NCBI RefSeq assembly: GCF_001641125.1
Contig: NZ_LWLP01000001.1
Coordinates: forward strand, 2,962,079 to 3,026,078
From: Arthrobacter sp. OY3WO11
GTDB taxonomy: Bacteria; Actinomycetota; Actinomycetes; Actinomycetales; Micrococcaceae
Reading direction: 5' to 3'
Length of the DNA stretch: 64,000 nt
Each line of letters opens with the position of its first letter. Position 1 is the first letter of the stretch. The translations under genes were made by a program, and so were the position numbers. The notes below the pieces were generated by a model, which did no database searches, had not been told where the DNA came from, and saw only the letters and a program-made list of their open reading frames with translations. Of the stretch, positions 27,037 to 39,134 are shown piece after piece.

Positions 27037-28328
27037 TGGCCATCTCCGGGCGTTTCGTGCTGCTCGTGCTGCTGGGGGTGGTGCCGGTCCTCCTGCTGCC
27101 CGGATGGGGAACGGTGCTGCTGGTGTCCGGGGTGCTGGCAGCCCTTGCCGCCGTCGACCTTCTGGCATCGGCACCGCTGCGGACGGTCAGCCTGCTGCGC
27201 ACACAGCCTGGAAACGTCACCCTGCACGCGGCGGTGGATGCTGTGCTTACGGTCCGGAACGATGGCGGCCGGCGGCTCCGCGGCGTCCTGCGCGACGCCT
27301 GGCAGCCCTCGGCGGGAGCGCAGAATGCGGTACAGGACATTGATGTTCCGGCCGGTGAGAGCAGGCGCGTCACCGTCCGGCTGCGCCCCGTCCGGCGGGG
27401 AGACCTCCGGGCCCCGCACGCCACCCTCCGCTCGTTTGGCCCCCTGCTGCTCGCGGCGCGCCAGAGGACAGTGCAGTGCCCCGGCTCGCTGCGGGTCCTG
27501 CCCCCTTTCCACTCCCGCCGGCACCTGCCGTCCAAGCTGCGGAAACTGCGCGAGCTCGACGGCAAGGCCGCGGTCCAGATCCGCGGCGCGGGCACCGAGT
27601 TCGATTCCCTGCGGGACTATGTCCGGGGCGACGACGTCCGGTCGATTGACTGGCGGGCCACGGCACGCCGGTCCGCGGTGGTAGTCCGCACCTGGCGGCC
27701 GGAACGCGACCGCCGCGTGGTGATGGTCCTCGATACCTCCAGGACGTCGGCGGCGAGGATCGACGACGAAACGCGCCTGGACACGGGCATGGAAGCGGCG
27801 CTCCTGCTGGGTGTCCTCGCGGAGCGGGGCGGGGACCGGGTGGACTTCCTCGCTTTTGACCGCCGGACGCGCGCCAGGGCAGGGTCCGCCGGGCAGGGGA
27901 ACCTCCTGGGCCAACTGGTCCAGGCCATGGCACCCCTTGAGGCTGAACTCATCGAGATGGACTGGCCGGCCGTCCCGGCGCAGGTCCGCGCCGTTTCCGC
28001 GCACCGGTCCCTCGTTGTGCTGCTCACCTCGCTGGACGGCGGCGCGCCCGAGGAAGGCCTGCTTCCCGTCGCGGCCCAGCTGGCCCGGCAGCACGTGGTG
28101 GTGGTTGCGGCGGTCCGGGACCCGCAGCTGGGAACCATGCTGGGAGAACGCGACGACGCCACCGGTGTCTTCCGGGCCGCCGCGGCCGAGCGTGCGCTCC
28201 TGCAGCGTGCGGCGATCAGCGCAGAGCTCCGGCAGCACGGCGTGTCAGTGGTGGACGCCGAACCCCACCAGCTGCCGCCGCGGCTGGCTGACATGTACAT
28301 CAGGCTCAAGGCTGCCGGTACATTGTGA
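27036..28328 (+). CDS. DUF58 protein with vWA-like domain
   Basis: The 430-residue protein starts at an ATG sharing one base with the moxR stop. Two N-terminal membrane helices (about 5-45) precede a beta-rich part. The DUF58 signature is clear: GAGTEFDSLRDYVRGDDVR, SIDWRATARR, then a vWA-like segment VVMVLDTSRTS with the metal-binding DxS pattern. MoxR-DUF58 pairs are widespread and poorly understood. The gene order MoxR-DUF58 with DUF4350/DUF4129 upstream is maintained here with overlapping ends, indicating one complex. A small DUF4166 gene follows 46 bases later. Confidence 0.92.
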   Translation: MAISGRFVLLVLLGVVPVLLLPGWGTVLLVSGVLAALAAVDLLASAPLRTVSLLRTQPGNVTLHAAVDAVLTVRNDGGRRLRGVLRDAWQPSAGAQNAVQDIDVPAGESRRVTVRLRPVRRGDLRAPHATLRSFGPLLLAARQRTVQCPGSLRVLPPFHSRRHLPSKLRKLRELDGKAAVQIRGAGTEFDSLRDYVRGDDVRSIDWRATARRSAVVVRTWRPERDRRVVMVLDTSRTSAARIDDETRLDTGMEAALLLGVLAERGGDRVDFLAFDRRTRARAGSAGQGNLLGQLVQAMAPLEAELIEMDWPAVPAQVRAVSAHRSLVVLLTSLDGGAPEEGLLPVAAQLARQHVVVVAAVRDPQLGTMLGERDDATGVFRAAAAERALLQRAAISAELRQHGVSVVDAEPHQLPPRLADMYIRLKAAGTL

Positions 28329-28374
28329 GGTCACAGCACTTTGTTCCAGCCGCTTTCCCAGCAGGAGGTTCCCC

Positions 28375-29088
28375 ATGAACGTTCCCATCTACCAGCAGGC
28401 CCTCGGCGCGGACTTTTCGCGCCTGCAGCCCGAGCTGCAGGACTACTTCTCCCTGGTGCCGGGCTCGGGCCGCTACGGCGTGGGGGAAGGAACGTTCGAC
28501 GTCGTGGGCTGCCGGCAGGAATGGCTCCGGCCTTTGCTGCGGCTCACCAGCGGGGAGGAAGCCTTCTTTCCCGAGTACGGCGAGAACATTCCGTTCCGCA
28601 TCGAGAACCACGCCCACCAGGACCCCTTCGGCCGTTCCAGCCTCACGGCCCGCCGCGAGATCCGGTTCCCCGGGCGCACCCGCATCTTCCAGGACACCAC
28701 AAGCAATACCCTCCGGAACGGTGCGCCCCAGCTGGTGGATTACGTAGGGCGGTACCGGCGGCTGGTCACCGACCTGAACCTGAGTGTCACGGCAGAGGGC
28801 CGGCTCCGGGGCGTATCGGAAGCATCGCGGCTCCTTCTGGGCCCCCTCCGTATTCCCCTTCCTGCTGCCCTGGACGCCAAAGCATACGCAGAACAGTGGT
28901 GGGACCCGGCAGAAGGGCCCGCCGGAAAGCACCGGATCCAGGTGAAGGTCATCCAGCCACAGATCGGCCTGGTCCTGGTCTACGCCGGCAGCTTCGACTA
29001 CCGGCTGCGCCCCTACACGGGCGGCAGCTCAGCCCACAGCTTCCTGCCGCGCTACGCGCAGCCCGAACGCTGGGAAAACAGGGTCTGA
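28375..29088 (+). CDS. DUF4166 protein
   Basis: The ATG at 28375 is well supported by GCAGGAGG eight bases upstream; 237 residues. The sequence has the DUF4166 look: a beta-rich single domain with GRYGVGEGTFDVVG, ENIPFRIENHAHQDPFGRSS, LSVTAEGRLRGVSEASR and PQIGLVLVYAGSFDYRL. No signal peptide or membrane helix is seen. It may be the last gene of the MoxR operon but lies 46 bases away, and it converges on the MetE-like gene with only 24 bases between. Function unknown. Confidence 0.75.
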   Translation: MNVPIYQQALGADFSRLQPELQDYFSLVPGSGRYGVGEGTFDVVGCRQEWLRPLLRLTSGEEAFFPEYGENIPFRIENHAHQDPFGRSSLTARREIRFPGRTRIFQDTTSNTLRNGAPQLVDYVGRYRRLVTDLNLSVTAEGRLRGVSEASRLLLGPLRIPLPAALDAKAYAEQWWDPAEGPAGKHRIQVKVIQPQIGLVLVYAGSFDYRLRPYTGGSSAHSFLPRYAQPERWENRV

Positions 29089-29112
29089 TGCCGCTGGCGA
29101 AAGCTGCGCCGG

Positions 29113-30186
29113 CTAGCCCTGGGCGAGCTGGTTCAGCCCGTCCGCAAGCTGGGTAAGCCTGCCCAACACCGCTGTGGCCTGCGACGGCGAGCCGCCGGCA
29201 AGCCCGGCCGAGGGTGTTACCCGGATGGAAGCCAGGGTGTGTGCCGGAAGGCCCAGCTGCCGCCAGGGCCGCCCCACGGCCTCCACCGATTCAGCGACCT
29301 TGGGCAGCGGCCCGCCGGCCGCCTCCAAGGCGCCGAGCCACAGGCTTGAGCCTGATTCCACCGCTCCAGCCAGCTGCTCCCACTGCCGGGACGTCAAGGC
29401 CTTCAGGGGAACAGCTATGCCGTCCGCTCCGGCAGCCAGGATCTGCTCGAAGGGCGCTTCCACCTCCGGAACAGAGATCACTGCTTCGGCGGCGCCCGCG
29501 GCCCGCAGGGCGTCAAGGACCAGACGCCATGATTCGCGTGCTTCAGATGCCGGCACCGCCCGGAGGGTGCGGTAGCCGCTGGAGGTGGGAATGGTGCCGG
29601 CCAGCACCGCGGCGATATCCGGCTCGTCCACCTGGACCACCATGCGCGCACCCGGTACGGCTGCCGCCACCCGGGAGAGGTATCCGCCCACGCCGGCGGC
29701 AAGCGAGGCTGCAAGGTCCCGCCGGGCGCCGTAGTCGAGGAGGGCCCGCTCGCCGTTGTGCAGGTGGAGCCCCGCCGCCAGGCTCAGGGGCCCTACCAGC
29801 TGGACCTTGATCTCGGCGGAAGGATTTTCCTCGGCTCCGGCTACATCGGCAAGGACGTTGATGTCCGTGGCCAGGGCTGAGGCGGCGCGGCGGACGTCCT
29901 TGCCGGGACGGTCAACCAGCCGCCACCCGTAGGGCTGGACGTCAACGGCCAGCTCGGCAAGGAGGCTGGCCGTACGCCCCAGGGCATCGGAACCAACTCC
30001 GCGGTCCGGCAATTCGGCGAGGAAGGGCAAGTGCGGGCTGCCGAGTTCGCCGCGGATGATCCTGGCGGCCTCCACGGGGTCTTCGCCCGGCCACGGTCCC
30101 AGTGCGGTGGCCGTTACTTCCCGCGGCGGAGCGGGTGCCGGTGAGGAGGCACTGCCGCGGTGTTCGTGCCTTTCGACCATGCTCAC
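29113..30186 (-). CDS. cysteine-free MetE/UROD-fold protein, probably not a classical methionine synthase
   Basis: The 357-residue protein resembles the C-terminal catalytic barrel of cobalamin-independent methionine synthase in its overall strand-helix order and the segment VVQVDEPDIAAVL. It contains no cysteine at all, although MetE requires a zinc-binding Cys pair. Where the family has TPSCGLA this protein has TPSAGLA. The HxCxGN zinc segment is also missing. It is therefore likely a repurposed or non-catalytic relative; annotation as methionine synthase would be misleading. It overlaps the upstream chorismate mutase gene by four bases. Confidence 0.75.
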   Translation of the reverse strand: MSMVERHEHRGSASSPAPAPPREVTATALGPWPGEDPVEAARIIRGELGSPHLPFLAELPDRGVGSDALGRTASLLAELAVDVQPYGWRLVDRPGKDVRRAASALATDINVLADVAGAEENPSAEIKVQLVGPLSLAAGLHLHNGERALLDYGARRDLAASLAAGVGGYLSRVAAAVPGARMVVQVDEPDIAAVLAGTIPTSSGYRTLRAVPASEARESWRLVLDALRAAGAAEAVISVPEVEAPFEQILAAGADGIAVPLKALTSRQWEQLAGAVESGSSLWLGALEAAGGPLPKVAESVEAVGRPWRQLGLPAHTLASIRVTPSAGLAGGSPSQATAVLGRLTQLADGLNQLAQG

Positions 30187-30590
30187 GCGAGGGCTGATGC
30201 CTGCGGGTGCTGGCCCGAGGCAGCCTCGTGGTCTTCGGCAATGGCCTCGTGGTGCCTTATGACTTCCCCGATGATGAAGTTGAGGAACTTCTCGGCAAAG
30301 GCGGGGTCCAGGTGTGCGTCCTCGGCGAGGCGGCGAAGCCTGGCGATCTGCGCGGCCTCGCGGCCGGGGTCCCCGGCGGGCAGCCGGTGGGCCGCCTTGA
30401 GGAAGCCCACCTTCTGGGTGGCCTTGAAGCGCTCCGCCAGCAGATAGACCAGGGTGGCATCAATGTTGTCGATGCTTGAACGGATGGAGAGCAGTTCAGC
30501 CATCACCGACTGGTCCACCTGGTCCGCCAGCGAACTGGCTGAGGGGTCGTAGTCATCGGCATCAGGAGTGTGAAGGTTGTGCTGCGTCAT
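30183..30590 (-). CDS. chorismate mutase, AroQ class
   Basis: The 135-residue all-helical protein carries the AroQ pattern: SIRSSIDNIDATLVYLLAER, then KVGFLKAAHRLPAGDPGREA and a C-terminal helix with IIGEVIRHHEAI. It would convert chorismate to prephenate for phenylalanine and tyrosine synthesis in the cytosol. An acidic 25-residue N-terminal extension precedes the catalytic part. It is the upstream gene of a translationally coupled pair with the MetE-like protein, a combination I cannot explain biochemically. Confidence 0.93.
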   Translation of the reverse strand: MTQHNLHTPDADDYDPSASSLADQVDQSVMAELLSIRSSIDNIDATLVYLLAERFKATQKVGFLKAAHRLPAGDPGREAAQIARLRRLAEDAHLDPAFAEKFLNFIIGEVIRHHEAIAEDHEAASGQHPQASALA

Positions 30591-30629
30591 GGTCCAAGTC
30601 TATGGGCAGGCACCGGAATCATCCGGGTG

Positions 30630-30666
30630 TTAAGCGCCGGTGCCGGTATCCGGCACCGGCGCTTAA
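30630..30666. terminator. hairpin terminator downstream of the oligopeptide ABC operon
   Basis: A perfect 17-bp inverted repeat (30630-30646 with 30650-30666) has a TAT loop and TTAA at its ends. It lies 29 bases past the stop of the ABC ATPase gene and before the chorismate mutase start on the same strand, so it separates the two transcripts. Confidence 0.85.
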
Positions 30667-30695
30667 GGCTTCAACACTGGCCTGCGGCTCAACGC

Positions 30696-32420
30696 TCAGA
30701 TGCCAAGCAGCGCACGGTGCGCTTCCCTCCGCTTCGCCTGTTCCTCCGGATCGGGCACGGGCAGGGAGGCGATGAGCCGCCGCGTGTAATCGTGCTGCGG
30801 GTTTCCCATCACCTGGCTGCCGATCCCCTGCTCCACCAGCCGGCCCTTGTAGAGGACGCCCACCCACGAGGACAGCGTGTCCACCACCGCGAGGTCGTGG
30901 CTGATGAACAGGCAGGCGAAGCCAAACTCCTGCTGGATGTCCCTGAACAGCTCCAGGACCTTGGCCTGCACCGAAACATCCAGTGCGGACGTCGGCTCAT
31001 CGGCAATCAGCAGCCGGGGATTCAGGCTGAGGGCCCGCGCCAGCGACGCCCGCTGGCGCTGGCCGCCGGACAGTTCGTGCGGGTACCGTCCCGCGTACGA
31101 CGCCGGCAGCTGGACTGATTCGAGGAGCTCGCCTACGCGTTTGCGCGCCTGAGCCGGGCTTGGCTTCGTGTGGATGACCATGGGTTCGGCGATGCAGTCC
31201 CCAATGGTCAGTTGCGGGTTGAAGGACGCCGCCGGGTCCTGGAACACAAAACCGATGTCCTTACGGAGCGGTTTAAAGGTACGTTCCTTGAGGTTCAGCA
31301 TCTCGTACCCCAGCACCTTCAGGCTGCCGCCGGTGGTCCTGTTGAGGCCGGCGATGGCACGCCCGATGGTGGTTTTCCCGGAGCCGGACTCCCCCACCAG
31401 GCCGAACACTTCTCCCCTGGACAACGTGAAGCTGACCCTGTCCACGGCCTTGAAAGCGGGGGTTCCCAGCCTGCCCGGGTACTCGATGGTGAGGTTGCTG
31501 GCTTCCACCAGGACCTCCTCCTCCTGGTGGGCCCGGCCGGTCAGTCCCTCGGAGGCCGAGTTCCGCCCGAGGTGGGGAACCGCGGCGAGGAGCCTGCGGG
31601 TGTAGTCCTGCCGCGGTTCTGCGAACAGGGTGCGGGCTGAAGCCTCCTCCACCACATCCCCCTGGTACATCACCACCACCCGGTCGGCGAGGTCCGCCAC
31701 CACCCCCATGTTGTGGGTGATGAGCACAATGGATGTGCCGTACTTGTCCCGCAGGTCCCGGAGCAGTTCCAGGATTTCTGCCTGAACTGTGACGTCCAGG
31801 GCCGTAGTGGGCTCGTCGGCCACAATCAGGCCGGGATTCAGCGCCAGCGCCGCGGCGATGACCACCCGCTGCTTTTGCCCGCCCGAGAACTGGTGCGGGT
31901 AATAGTTGACCCGGTGTTCCGGATCGGGGATGCCCACCTTGCGCAGCGCTTCAATGGCCCGGGTTTTGGCCTCCTTGGCTGAAACCCGCTTCCCGTCGCT
32001 TCCGGTGTGCGCCCGGATGCCTTCGGCAATCTGCCAGCCCACGGTGAACACCGGGTTCAGTGCGGTGGACGGTTCCTGGAACACCATGGCAACGTCCCGG
32101 CCGCGGATCTGTCGGAGCCGGGCGGCGCTGACACTGATCACATCGGCCCCGTTGATCACCACCGCACCGGAGCTGCTGGCCGTTTCGGGGAGCAACCCCA
32201 GGATGGTCTTGGCGGTGACAGTCTTGCCGGATCCGGACTCCCCCACGATTGCCAGCACCTCCCCCTTCCCGACCTCCAGGCTGACGTCCTTGACTGCCTG
32301 GACCGGACCGCCGTCAGTGGCGAACGTGACCTGGAGGTGGTCGATGTCGAGAACCGGACGACCGTCGTCGGGCTCCCCGTTGGGGTTCCGCCCGGACAAT
32401 GGATCGATGTTGACGGTCAT
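30696..32420 (-). CDS. oligopeptide/dipeptide ABC transporter, fused dual ATPase (DppD-DppF type)
   Basis: The 574-residue protein is two nucleotide-binding domains in one chain. The first has GESGSGKTVTAK and SGGQKQRV with the VADEPTTALDV Walker B. The second has GESGSGKTTIGRAI and SGGQRQRASLARALSL with IADEPTSALDV. The oligopeptide-family C-terminal extensions follow each (RLLAAVPHLGR; RLIASLPVPDPEE). It powers the two permeases encoded upstream. It overlaps the dppC-like gene by four bases. It would be cytosolic at the membrane. The substrate is probably short peptides, though nickel or glutathione cannot be excluded. Confidence 0.93.
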   Translation of the reverse strand: MTVNIDPLSGRNPNGEPDDGRPVLDIDHLQVTFATDGGPVQAVKDVSLEVGKGEVLAIVGESGSGKTVTAKTILGLLPETASSSGAVVINGADVISVSAARLRQIRGRDVAMVFQEPSTALNPVFTVGWQIAEGIRAHTGSDGKRVSAKEAKTRAIEALRKVGIPDPEHRVNYYPHQFSGGQKQRVVIAAALALNPGLIVADEPTTALDVTVQAEILELLRDLRDKYGTSIVLITHNMGVVADLADRVVVMYQGDVVEEASARTLFAEPRQDYTRRLLAAVPHLGRNSASEGLTGRAHQEEEVLVEASNLTIEYPGRLGTPAFKAVDRVSFTLSRGEVFGLVGESGSGKTTIGRAIAGLNRTTGGSLKVLGYEMLNLKERTFKPLRKDIGFVFQDPAASFNPQLTIGDCIAEPMVIHTKPSPAQARKRVGELLESVQLPASYAGRYPHELSGGQRQRASLARALSLNPRLLIADEPTSALDVSVQAKVLELFRDIQQEFGFACLFISHDLAVVDTLSSWVGVLYKGRLVEQGIGSQVMGNPQHDYTRRLIASLPVPDPEEQAKRREAHRALLGI

Positions 32421-33430
32421 GATGCCCTCACTTCGGTTGCGATGGCGGCGTTGTCCACCGGCGCCGGGGAACTGCCGCCCGTGCTCTTGCGGCCGCGGAG
32501 GCGTGGATCGTTGAGGTCGTTGATGCTCTCACCCACCAGGGTCAGGCCCACCACGGTCAGCACGATGGCCAGGCCGGGGAACAGGCCTGTCCACCAGATG
32601 CCGGACGTGGTGTCGGCGAGCGCCTTGTTGAGGTCGAAGCCCCACTCCGCGGCCGAGCTGGGCTCGATGCCGAAGCCGAGAAACCCAAGGCCGGCAAGGG
32701 TGAGGATGGCTTCGGAGGCGTTCAGGGTAAAGATCAGCGGCAGGGTCCGGGTGGCGTTGCGGTAGATGTGGCGGGTCATGATGCGGATGTTGGACGCTCC
32801 CACCACCTTGGCGGACTCCACGAAGGGCTCAGCCTTCAGCCTGACGGTTTCGGCCCTGATGACCCGGAAATACTGCGGAATGAAGACCAGCGTGATGGCC
32901 GTGCCGGCCGCGAAGATGCCGCCGATGAGGCTGGACTGTCCGCCGCTGATGACGATGGCCATGACAATGGCCACCAGCAGTGAGGGAAAGGCGTACACGG
33001 CATCGGCGATGACCACCAGGATCCGGTCGAGCCACCCGCCGAGGTAGCCGCTGACCAGGCCAAGGACAACGCCGATAACGATGGACATGGATACGGCGAC
33101 AACGATCACCAGGATCGCCGTCTGCGCGCCCCAAATGACCCGCGACAGGACGTCGTAACCGCCCACTGTCGTCCCCAAAAGGTGTTTGCCGCCTGGGGCC
33201 TGCTGCGTGGGGAAGTTGCCGTCGGCGTCGGAAAGCTGGGAGAAACCGTAGGGTGCCAACAGGGGTGCGAAAAGCGCCGTCAGGACGAACAGGCCGGTGA
33301 GGACCAGCCCCGCGACCAGCATGCCGCGCTGGAGGCCGACGCTTTTGTTGAAGTGTGAGACCACCGGCAGGCGGCGGTACCAGGGAGCCCGTGGACTTTC
33401 CATCGGGACGGGAACGGCCTGGATGCTCAT
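32417..33430 (-). CDS. oligopeptide ABC transporter permease (DppC type)
   Basis: The 337-residue protein has a cytoplasmic N-terminal OppC-like segment, a first helix at about 35-58, and five further membrane helices. A BPD transport inner-membrane loop has ESAKVVGASNIRIMTRHIYRNATRT, close to the EAA motif. It pairs with the DppB-like permease two bases upstream. The C-terminal tail is longer than usual and hydrophilic. It is part of a four-gene uptake operon. Confidence 0.92.
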   Translation of the reverse strand: MSIQAVPVPMESPRAPWYRRLPVVSHFNKSVGLQRGMLVAGLVLTGLFVLTALFAPLLAPYGFSQLSDADGNFPTQQAPGGKHLLGTTVGGYDVLSRVIWGAQTAILVIVVAVSMSIVIGVVLGLVSGYLGGWLDRILVVIADAVYAFPSLLVAIVMAIVISGGQSSLIGGIFAAGTAITLVFIPQYFRVIRAETVRLKAEPFVESAKVVGASNIRIMTRHIYRNATRTLPLIFTLNASEAILTLAGLGFLGFGIEPSSAAEWGFDLNKALADTTSGIWWTGLFPGLAIVLTVVGLTLVGESINDLNDPRLRGRKSTGGSSPAPVDNAAIATEVRAS

Positions 33431-33432
33431 GG

Positions 33433-34524
33433 TCAGTACCTCACGCGGGGATCGATCAGCGCGGCGATGATATCCACGATGAAGTTGGTCATGGCCACGA
33501 TGATGGCGAGCAGCACCACGATGCCTTGAACGGCAACGAAGTCACGGGCCGTGAGGTAGTTGGCGAGCTGGAATCCCAGGCCCTTCCATTCGAATGTTTT
33601 CTCGGTCAGCACCGCCCCGCCGAGCATCACTGCTATCTGGAGGCCCATCACCGTGATGATGGGTATCAGTGCGGGCTTGTAGGCATGCTTGGTGACCAGG
33701 CGGTATTCGCTGACGCCCCTGGACCGGCCGGCCTCAATGTAGTCCCTGCCGAGGGTGCCGATGACGTTGGTCCTGACAAGGCGGAGGAAGATGCCGGCTG
33801 TCAGCAGCCCCAGCGCCACCGCGGGCAGGACGGCGTGGGCCGTGACGTCTCCCAGGGCAGCCATGTTGCCGCTTCGAAGCGCGTCGAGCCAGTAGATTCC
33901 GGTGGGTGCCTCCAGTGACGTCAAGGCAAGTTCGCTGGACGTCCTGGCCCGCCCTGCCACCGGCAGCCAGCCGAGCCAGACCGAGAAGGTCAGCTTCAGC
34001 AGCATGCCGGCGAAGAACACGGGGGTTGCGTAGCAAAGAATGGCGAAGACCCGCAGGACGGCGTCCGGCGCCTTATCCCGGCGGTGGGCCGCCACCATGC
34101 CCAGCGGAATGCCTACCACGAGGGCGACGAGCAGTGCGTTGATGCTCAGCTCAAGGGTGGCCGAGCCGTACGTTGTCAGCATTTCGACGACGGCGCGGTT
34201 GTCCGTGAGCGTCCGGCCGAAGTTGCCGGTAGCCAGCTGGCCGAGGTATTCGAAGTATTGGACCAGGATGGGCCGGTCGTAGCCGGCTGCCAGGATCCGC
34301 TCCTGGAGCTGGTCCGCCGGCAGGCGCCCTCCCATGGCTGCGGTGATGGGATCGCCGGTGATCCTCATCAGGAAGAAGACCATGGTGACCAGGATGAAGA
34401 TGGTGGGGAAGATCAGCAGGAACCGGACCAGGATGTACTGGCCCAATCCGCCGCCGGATGATTTCTTGGCGGCCGGCAGCAGGCCGTCCGCGTCAGTTGG
34501 TGGCGCCTCGATCAATGTAGTCAT
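33433..34524 (-). CDS. oligopeptide ABC transporter permease (DppB type)
   Basis: The 363-residue protein has an N-terminal hydrophilic tail, a helix at about 30-52 and five more helices. The EAA-like loop reads EAGRSRGVSEYRLVTKHAYKPALIP. The ATG is preceded by GAGGTACCC. It is separated from the binding-protein gene by 142 bases that hold an inverted repeat. It forms the channel with the DppC-like protein. Confidence 0.92.
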   Translation of the reverse strand: MTTLIEAPPTDADGLLPAAKKSSGGGLGQYILVRFLLIFPTIFILVTMVFFLMRITGDPITAAMGGRLPADQLQERILAAGYDRPILVQYFEYLGQLATGNFGRTLTDNRAVVEMLTTYGSATLELSINALLVALVVGIPLGMVAAHRRDKAPDAVLRVFAILCYATPVFFAGMLLKLTFSVWLGWLPVAGRARTSSELALTSLEAPTGIYWLDALRSGNMAALGDVTAHAVLPAVALGLLTAGIFLRLVRTNVIGTLGRDYIEAGRSRGVSEYRLVTKHAYKPALIPIITVMGLQIAVMLGGAVLTEKTFEWKGLGFQLANYLTARDFVAVQGIVVLLAIIVAMTNFIVDIIAALIDPRVRY

Positions 34525-34586
34525 GGGTACCTCAGGTTTGTTTTACGGTGCCCGCGGCGGGCCGGCACCGCATCCCGGCCAGCACG

Positions 34587-34635
34587 CGGGGCGGGACACG
34601 TGCACCTGGCTGCAGGCGCGCCGTGTCCCGCCCCG
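34587..34635. terminator. intercistronic hairpin after the binding-protein gene
   Basis: A perfect 14-bp GC-rich repeat (34587-34600 with 34622-34635) with a 21-base loop lies between the peptide-binding-protein stop and dppB. No T-run follows. It may be a partial terminator or an mRNA 3'-end stabiliser raising binding protein over permease. That role is inferred. Confidence 0.55.
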
Positions 34636-34666
34636 TGAGCGGTCAGGTTCGGATGGTTCGGAGGAC

Positions 34667-36301
34667 CTACTTGGACATCACGCCAAGACGGGTCTTGAAC
34701 GAGGCATCGAGGGTCTTTTCGACTCCCTGGACATCCGTTCCGGCCACCATGACCTGGGCGCCCTGCAGCAGAGGCAGCGTGGAGAGGTCCTTGGCGATGG
34801 CTTCCTGGGCCTGGCCCAGGAGATCACTCCGCTCAGCCTTGTCCGTGGTGACCAGCTGCTTCTTCACGATGTCCGTCACGGCAGGGTTCTCGTAGTGGTT
34901 GCCGAGGAAGTTGCCCGGGATGAAGAACGGCGTCAGGTAGTTGTCCGCGTCGGAATAGTCCGGGAACCAGCCCAGCTGGTACACGGGGTAGGCGTCGGCC
35001 CGGCGTTCCTTGGTGTAGGTGGTCCACTCGGTCGACTTGAGGTCGACGGTGAAGAGCCCTGACTTTTCGAGCTGTTCCTTCACCAGCGCGTACTCGTCGG
35101 CCGCGGAGGTGCCGTAGCGGTCCGTGTACTGCAGCTTCACGTCAACCACCGAGGTGATGCCGGCATCGGCAAGGACCTGCTTTGCCTTGTCCAGGCTCGG
35201 CTTGCCACTGCCGTCGCCGTAGAGGCTCTTCAGCGGCTCGCTTGCGCCTTCGAATTCCTTGGGCACGTAGGAGTAGACCGGAGTGTAGGTGTCCTTGAAG
35301 ACCTGCGAGGCAATGACATCGCGGTCAACGAGGTGGGCGATGGCCTGGCGGACGGCGAGGGCCTTGGCAGGGTCGGCGTCCGGGGTCTTCGCGCCGAACG
35401 GCATGGTGTCGAAGTTGAAGACCATGTAGCGCAGTTCCCCGCCCGGGCCCTTGTGGACCTTCACCTTGTCGTCGCCCTCAAGGTCTGCGACGTCGGTGGC
35501 GGTGAGGATGCGCCCGGCGACGTCGATGTTGCCCTGCTGGACGTCAAGCTTCAGGTTGTTCGGGTCCGCGTAGTGCTTGAGGGTGGCGCCGTCGTTGGCA
35601 GCAGCACCCAGCAGCCCCTGGTAATCCGGGTTGGGCTTGAAGCTGACCAGTTCGTTCTTTTTGTAGCTTTCAATCGTGTACTGGCCGGCAAACGGCTTGG
35701 CGGCAACGATGGCGTCGTCGTCCATGATCTTGTCTGCCGGGAAGACTTCCTCGTCCACGATCGGACCGGGGTTTGAGGCCAGGACGCCCGGGAACACCTG
35801 GTCGTTTCCGGCGGCCAGGGTGAACACCACGGTGTTGGCGTCCGTCGCCTCGATCTTTTCCATGTTGGAGAGCAGCGAAGCGGGCCCGTTGGGGTCGTCG
35901 ATCGACTTGACACGGTTGAAGGAGAACACGACGTCGGAGGAATCCAGCGTGTTGCCGTTGGCGAACTTCAGGCCCGGCTTGAGCTTCACGGTGTACTCGG
36001 TGGGGCTGGTAAAGGAGGCGGACTCCGCGATGTCCGGAGTGGCCTCGGCAGTGCCGGGTTTGTAGTTGAGCAGGAACGGGTAGATCTGGTTCATGACCAT
36101 GAACGACCCGCCGTCATAGGACCCGGCGGGATCCAGGGTGACCACTTTGTCCGTGGTGCCGTACGTGATGGCACCACCCCCTGCATCGCCGGTCGAGGTC
36201 CCGCCGCCTCCGCCTGAGGGGCCCGTGCAGGCAGTCAGTGCGAGGGCGGAAATGCCTGCCAGCGCGATTGCGCCGTGCAGTGCTTTGTTGCTCTTCGTCA
36301 T
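34667..36301 (-). CDS. oligopeptide-binding lipoprotein (SBP_bac_5 family)
   Basis: The 544-residue extracellular binding protein has a lipoprotein signal ending in ALTAC (Cys25), then a Gly/Ser-rich spacer. The SBP family 5 body includes VKLKPGLKFANGNTLDSSDV and LAVRQAIAHLVDRDVIASQVF. It would deliver peptides to the DppBC permease. The ATG at 36299-36301 has only AGAAAG upstream. The gene is first in the operon, followed by a hairpin and then dppB, dppC and the fused ATPase. Upstream, 36302-36491 holds no gene I can see. Confidence 0.94.
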   Translation of the reverse strand: MTKSNKALHGAIALAGISALALTACTGPSGGGGGTSTGDAGGGAITYGTTDKVVTLDPAGSYDGGSFMVMNQIYPFLLNYKPGTAEATPDIAESASFTSPTEYTVKLKPGLKFANGNTLDSSDVVFSFNRVKSIDDPNGPASLLSNMEKIEATDANTVVFTLAAGNDQVFPGVLASNPGPIVDEEVFPADKIMDDDAIVAAKPFAGQYTIESYKKNELVSFKPNPDYQGLLGAAANDGATLKHYADPNNLKLDVQQGNIDVAGRILTATDVADLEGDDKVKVHKGPGGELRYMVFNFDTMPFGAKTPDADPAKALAVRQAIAHLVDRDVIASQVFKDTYTPVYSYVPKEFEGASEPLKSLYGDGSGKPSLDKAKQVLADAGITSVVDVKLQYTDRYGTSAADEYALVKEQLEKSGLFTVDLKSTEWTTYTKERRADAYPVYQLGWFPDYSDADNYLTPFFIPGNFLGNHYENPAVTDIVKKQLVTTDKAERSDLLGQAQEAIAKDLSTLPLLQGAQVMVAGTDVQGVEKTLDASFKTRLGVMSK

Positions 36302-36537: not shown

Positions 36538-37674
36538 TTAGAGCTCGGCGCGCTGAAGCGAGCGGGCGGCGTCAATGGTCGCCTGGCCCAGCACCCGGCT
36601 GCCCTGGTATAGGACAATCGTCTGTCCCGGAGCCACTCCACGCAGCGGGGTGGTGAGCCGGACTACCAGCTGGCCGGCGGCGTCCGCCTGGTCGCCACCC
36701 ACTTCCATGCGGGCGGTCGCGGGTACGGGGTCGCCGTGGGCACGGACCTGGGCGTGGCAGTCGAACTCCCCGCCCGTCTCCACCTCGGCGATAGGCAGTC
36801 CTGCCCAGGAGACCTTGATGCCGCGGATCTCGTCGATGGCCAGCAGGGCCTCCGGGCCCACCACTACCTTGTTTTCCTTGGGCCGGATCTCCAGGACGAA
36901 GCGGGGCTTGCCATCGGCGGCGGGCGTGCCCAGTTTCAGGCCGCGGCGCTGGCCCACGGTGAAGGCGTTGGCACCCGGGTGCTCGCCCACCTTTGTCCCG
37001 GTTTCGTCCACGATGTCCCCGGTGGACATGTCGATCTTTTCGGCAAGCCATCCCGCGGTGTCACCGTCAGGGATGAAGCAGATGTCATGGCTGTCCGGCT
37101 TGTTGGCCACCGAGAGTCCGCGGCGTTCAGCCTCAGCACGGACTTCAGCTTTGGAAGGTGTCTCGGCCAGCGGGAACATGGAGTGTTTGAGCTGCTCGTG
37201 CGTCAGGACGCCCAGGACGTAGCTCTGGTCCTTGGCCCAGTCAGCGGCGCGGTGGAGCTCGCGGTTACCGTCAGCATCCTCAATGACCTTGGCGTAGTGT
37301 CCGGTGCACACGGCGTCGAACCCCAGGGCGATGGCCTTTTCCAGGAGCGCGGCGAACTTGATCCGCTCGTTGCACCGCATGCAGGGGTTGGGGGTGCGGC
37401 CGGCGGCATATTCATCGATGAAGTCCTGGACAACGTCTTCCTTGAACCGCTCGGAGAAATCCCAGACGTAGTACGGGATGCCCAGGACGTCACAGGCCCG
37501 CCACGCATCGCGGGAGTCCTCGATGGTGCAGCAGCCGCGGCTTCCGGTGCGTAGCGTGCCGGGCATGCGTGAGAGCGCCAGGTGGACGCCGACGACGTCA
37601 TGTCCCGCCTCGACGGCGCGGGCGGCGGCGACGGCGGAGTCGACTCCGCCGCTCATGGCTGCTAGAACTCGCAT
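36538..37674 (-). CDS. mnmA: tRNA-specific 2-thiouridylase MnmA
   Basis: From the ATG at 37672-37674, supported by GAGGGAAAGCAACC, the product is 378 residues. The ATP-binding PP-loop SGGVDSA is at 8-14. The sulfur-relay cysteines are Cys98 in NPCMRC and Cys199 in SHDICFI. It thiolates U34 of tRNA for Lys, Glu and Gln, using sulfur from a cysteine desulfurase. The desulfurase gene is immediately upstream on the same strand. The C-terminal beta-barrel domains are complete, and the length is normal. Confidence 0.96.
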
Positions 37675-37904
37675 GGTTGCTTTCCCTCGGGGTTTTACCG
37701 GCTCCTGGCCGGTGCTGGCGAACGTGCGCGGCTGGTCGCGCCGGTTGATGGCGCTGGACAAGGACGCTGGCTCCCGGCGCTGATTCCCGGTGCCGATTCT
37801 TGGGCTGATTCTTAGGGCGGGCAGGCTCCCGGAAACGATCCTTGCCTATCTATTCTACGGCCTCCGCCCAAGGCTCCGTCAGGCACCTTCGAGGCAGGGC
37901 GCTG

Positions 37905-39134
37905 TCAGCCGCCGTTGAGGGCCCGGCGCGCAAGCGTCCCTGCGGTCTGGATGCTGGACTCGTGCCCGGCCATCCCCGCCTGCCGGGCCCGTGCATAGGC
38001 ATCTGGCAGCGCGGCCAACAGGGCGTCAACGTCGCCCTCCACGGAGGCGTGGCCCAGGGTGAACCGCTGCGCGCCGCGCGCCGTTTCCTCGTCCAGGCCC
38101 ATGGCCAGCAGAACGTGGGAAGGCCTGGGCACGCCGGCCGTGCAGGCCGAACCGGTGGACGACTCCACGCCGGCCAGGTCCAGGAGGAACAGCAGGGAAT
38201 CCCCCTCGCAGCCGGGAAAAGTGAAGTGCGCGTTGCCGGGGAGCCGGCCGTTTCCGGCAGCACCGCGCAGGACGGCTTCCGGAACCCGTTCCAGGACACC
38301 GTCAATCAGCCGGTCACGGAGGCCCGCAATGCGTGCGGACTCGGCGCCCAGGGTGGCCGCGGCCTTCTCAGCGGCAGCGGCGAAGGCTGCGATCGAGGCC
38401 GTGTCCAGCGTGCCCGAGCGGACGTCCCGTTCCTGGCCTCCGCCGTGCTGGACGGGAGTGAGCTTCACTGCCCGTCCCAGCAGGAGCGCACCTACCCCTA
38501 CCGGTCCGCCGATCTTGTGGCCGGAAATGGACATGGCGTCCAGCCCTGAGGCCTTGAAATCCACGGGGAGGGAGCCAAACGCCTGGACAGCGTCCGAGTG
38601 CACGGGAACGCCGGCGGCATGCGCCAGCTCCACGATCCTGCTGACGGGCTGGATGGTGCCCACCTCGTTGTTGGCCCATATCACGGTGACCAGGGCGATG
38701 GTGTCCGGGTCACGGGATAGTTCAGCGTCAAGGACGGCAAGGTCCACCGCTCCGTCGCTGTCCACCGGCAGCCAGACCACCTCGGCGCCTTCGTGCCGTT
38801 CCAGCCACTCCACCGTGTCCAGGACCGCATGGTGTTCGACGGCGGAGCAGAGGATGCGGCGCCGCGCGGGCATGTCAGCAACGCGGGACCAGTACAGCCC
38901 CTTCACGGCAAGGTTGTCAGATTCCGTACCGCCTGACGTGAAGATGACTTCCGACGGGTGGGCTCCGGCGGCAGCAGCAACAGCCTCCCGGGCGTCCTCC
39001 ACGGCACGGCGGGCCCGCCGGCCGGAACCGTGCAGCGAAGACGGGTTTCCAGTGCGGGCCAGTTCACGGGTCAGCGCGGCCAGCGCCTCAGGGGCAAGGG
39101 GGGTGGTTGCTGCATGATCGAGGTAGACGGGCAC
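37905..39134 (-). CDS. iscS: cysteine desulfurase (NifS/IscS class)
   Basis: The 409-residue PLP enzyme has the start motif [18 protein letters not shown], a PLP-binding lysine at 207 in SISGHKIGG, and an active-site Cys at 331 in [10 protein letters not shown]. It removes sulfur from cysteine and passes persulfide to acceptors such as MnmA. It begins with GTG at 39132-39134. The gene lies 230 bases before mnmA; that gap holds no gene I can see. This pairing is also found in mycobacteria (Rv3025c-Rv3024c). Confidence 0.94.

Follow-up and report, generated by a model that had tools for sequence, protein, structure and literature searches.

The described proteins nearest to the one analysed here are the single-domain MetE-like proteins of actinomycetes, the core methionine synthases MesA-D and the catalytic barrel of MetE (cobalamin-independent methionine synthase). 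As set out in PMC7857596, core methionine synthases are defined by zinc ligand sets of HCEC or HCDC, the latter given by Price et al. for a MesB protein, and contact homocysteine through S433, E484 and D599 in E. coli numbering; the paper also covers the degenerate ligands reported by Price et al. in MesB-like proteins of Chloroflexales, and chorismate mutase does not occur in it. In the MetE structure, the zinc ligands are situated at the end of β5, in the following loop, at the end of β6 and in the loop after β8, and the same source suggests that uroporphyrinogen decarboxylase (UroD) may derive from a zinc barrel (PMC539065). The activity of the mycobacterial single-domain MetE-like protein Rv3015c is called 'unclear' (PMC4428469). 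Among open-licence papers, searched by title and abstract start, none was found on a zinc-less form or on a pairing with chorismate mutase.

Gene pair and predicted fold

We analysed a window of 64,000 nucleotides from Arthrobacter sp. OY3WO11, in which a MetE-like gene adjoins a chorismate mutase gene. The features of this region are:

29113..30186, minus strand: zinc-less single-domain MetE-like (beta-alpha)8 barrel protein, 357 aa from GTG, or 355 aa from ATG at 30180
30183..30186, minus strand: GTGA stop/start overlap of the mutase and MetE-like genes, 4 bases
30183..30590, minus strand: chorismate mutase, monofunctional clade E (TIGR01795, 138.1 bits, cut-off 107.55)
30696..36301, minus strand: peptide-type ABC transporter genes between mnmA and the mutase, named by eye from ORF sequences
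36538..37674, minus strand: mnmA, tRNA 2-thiouridine synthase, syntenic marker upstream (408.7 bits, cut-off 284)
37905..39134, minus strand: cysteine desulfurase (iscS/nifS type), syntenic marker upstream (best match TIGR03402, 397.3 bits, under the cut-off of 530.75)

The MetE-like gene thus lies downstream of iscS and mnmA (36538-39134). The overlap of four bases that the sequence-only reading had described is present: the mutase frame terminates in GTGA (30183-30186), and the same letters supply the GTG start of the MetE-like frame, with the alternative ATG two codons further inside. The TIGR01795 match of the mutase is at equivalog level and passes the curated cut-off. A second CM_2-domain gene of the genome (L226:1477-1836(-)) stays under all NCBIfam cut-offs and scores best to isochorismate lyase, and the window's mutase is therefore probably the housekeeping one. 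A promoter and terminator scan of 28300-31000 on both strands found none and was uninformative.

Sequence profiles place the protein only loosely. Its Pfam Meth_synt_2 score of 18.7 bits falls under the cut-off of 21 and is a weak match, the NCBIfam profile scan gave no match, and URO-D is not among its Pfam matches up to E = 1. No convincing relative came up among PDB sequences, whether the query was the window protein, family profile A1 or one zinc-type member. Its structure was modelled with AlphaFold2 from an alignment with 57 relatives (of 73 usable named loci), giving a single barrel of 357 aa at pLDDT 74 and pTM 0.79, with pLDDT below 50 in the pocket loops 47-65 and 80-93. In structure comparison (VIA), the model aligned with the core methionine synthase MesD (3rpd_B) over 277 residues with a Z score of 21.5 and an rmsd of 3.2, with MetE catalytic barrels at Z of about 18-20, and with UroD at Z of about 17.5. 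Together these scores support a MetE-type barrel as the predicted fold.

The genome encodes a methionine synthase elsewhere. A full metE (803-aa frame) is present, which answers for metE the question, raised earlier, of whether a complete metE/metH exists; there are also MetH-domain matches. Two partial matches to the MetH activation domain lie about 9 kb apart (G000:C1:3901115-3910993), and one of them contains a TGA.

Zinc ligands and homocysteine contacts across the family

The window's own family (coded f1) was read as Micrococcaceae from its named relatives, mostly Arthrobacter and Pseudarthrobacter. Of 149 genomes of this family, 147 contain the MetE-like protein, including all 144 good genomes, small ones among them, and so do 251 of 296 genomes sampled across the class; no match was seen in the 13 f4 genomes listed or in the f32 genomes listed. 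We extracted 221 loci (133 from the family and 88 others, numbers in which the genome of the window is counted, as are some genomes retrieved twice), and left out three sequences shorter than 300 aa (L068, L145, L163) and 30 near-duplicates; 112 of the resulting 188 non-redundant sequences remain below 80% identity. Flanks were only 1.5 kb in 57 of the 88 non-family loci, and the wider gene-order comparison was confined to loci longer than 9 kb (100 family, 31 others). Family genomes have essentially one MetE-like gene each, second matches being pieces of the same frame, and the gene lies behind mnmA wherever mnmA is in view; a hidden paralogue in place of an orthologue is thus not favoured.

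Sequences were called zinc-type when the alignment showed H, C and C at the places of MetE His641, Cys643 and Cys726, with D at the third ligand counted afterwards. In the window protein, the codons at the four ligand places are:

29473..29475, minus strand: Ser238, place of the first zinc ligand (His641 of E. coli MetE), by alignment; last residue of a strand in the model
29467..29469, minus strand: Pro240, place of the second ligand (Cys643), by alignment
29407..29409, minus strand: Pro260, place of the third ligand (Glu665 of MetE; Asp in MesB and in 53/53 zinc-type relatives), by alignment; last residue of the next strand in the model
29206..29208, minus strand: Ala327 in TPSAGLA, place of the fourth ligand (Cys726), by alignment

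Neither the HCEC nor the HCDC set is present, and none of the H, C, E and C of MetE is kept, which agrees with the loss of the zinc site proposed in the sequence-only reading. The TPSAGLA motif named there is found as well (the ORF reads VTPSAGLAGG); its 'HxCxGN' element is not one seen here, the genome's own MetE reading HTHLCY and PDCGL. In the model, whose residue numbers run one lower than those of the gene, the four places correspond to the last residue of strand 233-237, two residues further on, the last residue of strand 255-259 and the loop after strand 320-324. These predicted positions fit those where MetE holds zinc. The third ligand was assigned because its place is invariant (53/53), closes the strand that follows and is Asp in MesB; it was not exactly placed by hhalign of the two groups' profiles against the genome's own MetE, which gave probabilities of 6 and 20% (P 0.006 and 0.001).

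With the third-ligand Asp in all 53 zinc-type sequences, their H-x-C ... D ... C site is complete, and nearly all of the 53 keep the contacts to homocysteine as well (S in 52, E in 52 and D in 53). Orthologues of this type (for example L223:8615-9622(-) and L194:8755-9744(+)), usually between mnmA and ligA, carry HCDC with the S/E/D contacts and share 33-49% identity with the window protein in the best piece. Three of them were scanned and none reached an NCBIfam cut-off; judged by their residues, they apparently form an unnamed core-MetE-like family that would be catalytically competent.

In the window's family, the ligand letters H, C, D and C occur in 1, 1, 6 and 0 of 129 non-redundant sequences, and in 1, 0, 9 and 0% of the 68 rows below 80% identity. 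An alignment-free count found neither zinc motif in 132 of 133 family loci; among the 88 other loci, 72 have both motifs, 11 neither and five only one. Since the loss is family-wide, neither chance nor sequencing error explains it, and the error or frameshift that had been raised as an alternative is contradicted by the agreement among family loci. Breaks do occur in a few loci (short or split frames in L066 and L068, and a TAG reported for G123). No well conserved substitute has taken over the lost places, the best being P at 59% and 62% in two of them. The homocysteine contacts are unevenly kept, with S, E and D in 19, 65 and 75% of the 68 family rows below 80% identity. In the window protein the matched columns hold P31, E58 and D187, of which E58 lies inside a poorly predicted loop and D187 at the end of model strand 180-186.

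The complete absence of cysteine, also claimed for this protein, is real (0 Cys in the ORF 29113-30186(-)). As a signal in itself we rejected it: at the window's cysteine frequency about 1.3 cysteines would be expected, with P(0) of about 0.26. Of 20 other ORFs picked by hand from the window, each 240 aa or longer, 5 are likewise cysteine-free. Over the core, 66 of 129 non-redundant family sequences lack cysteine (mean 0.7), and zinc-type sequences average 4.2 (n=53). On the question of whether the loss is general among actinobacterial relatives, the answer is divided: the whole of the window's family has lost the zinc cysteines, which most other actinobacteria sampled still have.

Residues other than the metal site are conserved in the family. 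The DEP motif is mostly kept in the family (E188 97%, D187 75%), and family-conserved residues present in fewer than 35% of zinc-type rows include A113, D114, R155, Y205-R206-T207, W269 and E270. Four of these (R155, Y205, W269 and E270) also occur in zinc-type relatives of the same order, so that the family-typical residues partly predate the loss of zinc.

Two further records were noted. One titled Sporosarcina beigongshangi (L077:7971-9089) holds an Arthrobacter-like copy of the locus in the same gene order and may stem from an assembly that was contaminated or given the wrong name. A zinc-less relative outside the family (L203:8586-9632) scores 23.2 bits against Pfam URO-D, just under the cut-off of 23.9, a hint that its sequence may have drifted toward the uroporphyrinogen decarboxylase profile.

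Evolution of the locus and competing readings

On a tree of 112 rows, built by a quick method with the ligand columns removed and showing long branches, the zinc label needs five changes, at least three of them forced by starred branches; the count of five may be too high because L178, a member of the window's family, joins L164 in what was flagged as a possible artefact. The zinc site was probably lost rather than gained, a direction we infer because the zinc form is widespread and matches the MetE and Mes proteins. Possession of a full metE does not cleanly explain the loss: in hand-picked genomes, the MetE N-domain was found in 15 of 30 from the family, three of six other zinc-less ones and five of 23 zinc-type ones, numbers that are confounded by kinship.

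The family diverges faster than its zinc-type relatives, by 4.66 vs 1.95 relative to mnmA (leave-one ranges 3.69-6.11 and 1.54-2.26) and by 2.40 vs 1.53 relative to iscS, where the leave-one ranges nearly touch (1.92-2.97 and 1.21-1.90). Such a difference suggests that the constraint on the protein has changed, although it could be plain relaxation. Among Arthrobacter and Pseudarthrobacter loci, the dN/dS of the MetE-like gene is 0.143, close to the 0.095 of the mutase and the 0.121 of oppB; zinc-type relatives from family f25 show a higher 0.248, and dN/dS therefore does not rank the constraint of the two groups. There are 84 invariant columns among 58 mostly close relatives (57 loci and the window protein). 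The low dN/dS and the presence of the gene in all good family genomes indicate that the barrel is kept under purifying selection.

We consider it likely that the window protein is a retained pseudoenzyme, a zinc-less descendant of a class-wide actinobacterial single-domain MetE-like family. The ancestral form would have resembled the class-wide protein of the sampled loci, usually located between mnmA and ligA and bearing the full zinc and homocysteine site. All four zinc ligands, and in most family members the serine that contacts the homocysteine carboxyl, are gone from present-day sequences, and both losses may be placed on or near the Micrococcaceae stem. Over the same interval a clade-E chorismate mutase gene, observed directly upstream today, would have arrived, and the two genes would since have been inherited as a tightly spaced pair, probably with translational coupling. 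What appears to have been kept is the barrel, most of the DEP motif and the loop and helix set R155, Y205-R206-T207 and W269-E270; thiol activation on zinc would be gone, and binding of a ligand or a partner protein would still be served. The conservation of these elements makes a pseudoenzyme most likely, and their maintenance under selection points most likely to a binding or regulatory protein. The repurposed fold suggested by the sequence-only reading is hence also our best reading, given four lost ligands in a fold under purifying selection.

Strict pairing of the two genes makes the mutase the foremost candidate partner of the barrel. Outside the family, the usual order is iscS, mnmA, MetE-like gene, ligA, gatC and gatA, and of the 31 non-family loci of about 12-18 kb, 29 have mnmA on the upstream side and 28 have ligA on the downstream side. 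Among the 100 family loci longer than 9 kb, mnmA is in view upstream in 87 (26 of 29 in a genus-spread set) and ligA in none. A chorismate mutase gene directly upstream of the MetE-like gene was found in all 133 family loci vs none of the 88 others; a start codon lies at most 30 bases from the mutase stop in 127 of the 133, and 59 have one that would allow the 4-base overlap seen in the window. Some Micrococcaceae genera (the window's own, and L018, L020, L165-L193) carry an operon for a peptide-type ABC transporter between mnmA and the mutase, and others lack it. The pair stays together whether or not these transporter genes intervene on the mnmA side.

Such persistence would be expected if the barrel were a partner or regulator of the mutase, binding the enzyme or an aromatic precursor and tuning its activity through coupled translation, and within our sampling both the arrival of the mutase and the loss of zinc precede the spread of the family. 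We nevertheless regard this as unlikely. The zinc site is also missing from six sampled genomes outside the family (f6, f7, f8, f39, f42, f44), none of which has a mutase beside the gene, and the pairing is thus not supported as a general cause of zinc loss. In hand-picked genomes, clade-E mutases over the cut-off occur in 16 of 37 from outside the family, never adjoining the MetE-like gene, and these include all four tested from f4, a group with no barrel match in the 13 genomes listed; within the family they were found in six of eight, the two without being about 82% complete. None of the 133 family loci has the mutase and MetE-like genes fused, and inertia can be enough to keep overlapping neighbours together. 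The earlier proposal of a link to aromatic amino acid flow is not borne out by these observations, as the pairing, although universal in the family, is missing in the six other zinc-less genomes sampled, and in other actinobacterial families the clade-E mutase is encoded away from the barrel gene or no barrel was seen. Judged by gene order, the link to aromatic metabolism appears positional only. That the mutase landed on the Micrococcaceae stem and the barrel then dropped its metal to become a dedicated, co-translated mutase partner or ligand sensor is, as a specific scenario, a little less probable again. If it were true, it would amount to allosteric control of the shikimate branch point by a methionine-synthase fold, and a functional pairing of any sort would add a novel type of control where the pathways to phenylalanine and tyrosine begin.

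We give a similarly low standing to the possibility that the barrel is still an enzyme, carrying out metal-free chemistry in the same pocket by analogy with UroD. The latter shares the fold without a metal, aligns with the model at Z of about 17.5 and may itself have a zinc-barrel origin, and the family conserves the charged residues D151, R155, R156, E188, R206 and R209. Against this, the lost ligands have no well conserved substitute and the pocket loops are poorly predicted, so that no catalytic set can be named.

The faster divergence after zinc loss, the long branches of several zinc-less tree rows and the lack of a match among the f4 genomes listed would also suit a slowly decaying remnant that survives only through its coupling to a needed mutase gene. 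The low dN/dS, the invariant columns and the presence of the gene in every good family genome, however small, speak against such decay, which we think quite improbable.

With all ligands gone and a real metE in the genome, the protein is very unlikely to be a zinc-dependent methionine synthase. An active core methionine synthase whose unusual site works without zinc is the least credible reading by far: although the fold of the protein is related and D187 and E58 align with the two amino-group contacts of homocysteine, all four ligands are missing, S31 is replaced by P, and the same genome has a complete metE as well as MetH-domain genes.

On the pseudoenzyme reading that we favour, an entire bacterial family would have preserved a protein from which the catalytic metal site has cleanly disappeared, and a zinc-bearing sister group can be compared with it at the same locus. 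We caution against annotating such family genes as methionine synthase.

Comparison with known systems

UroD has the same barrel without a metal, but the window protein belongs to a different sequence family and no heme function is implied. With MetE, it has the catalytic barrel fold in common; unlike MetE, it has neither the N-terminal folate barrel nor the zinc site, and a separate true metE is found in the genome. Among the core methionine synthases MesA-D it is most similar to MesD (3rpd), sharing the fold and, in the columns matched to them, putatively two of the three homocysteine contacts, but it differs from all of them in the absence of zinc ligands, in its score under the Pfam cut-off and in having no NCBIfam match. 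Earlier precedents for loss of the zinc site in a MetE-type fold concern other lineages, with replacements other than those of the window protein.

Rv3015c, with ligA, trmU and iscS nearby, presumably belongs to the same locus type. Likened by description, the window protein resembles actinomycete single-domain MetE-like proteins of the Rv3015c type in being a single domain and in its position behind iscS-mnmA. It is set apart from them by the loss of the four zinc ligands, by its pairing with a chorismate mutase and by a neighbourhood that has no ligA in 100 family loci.
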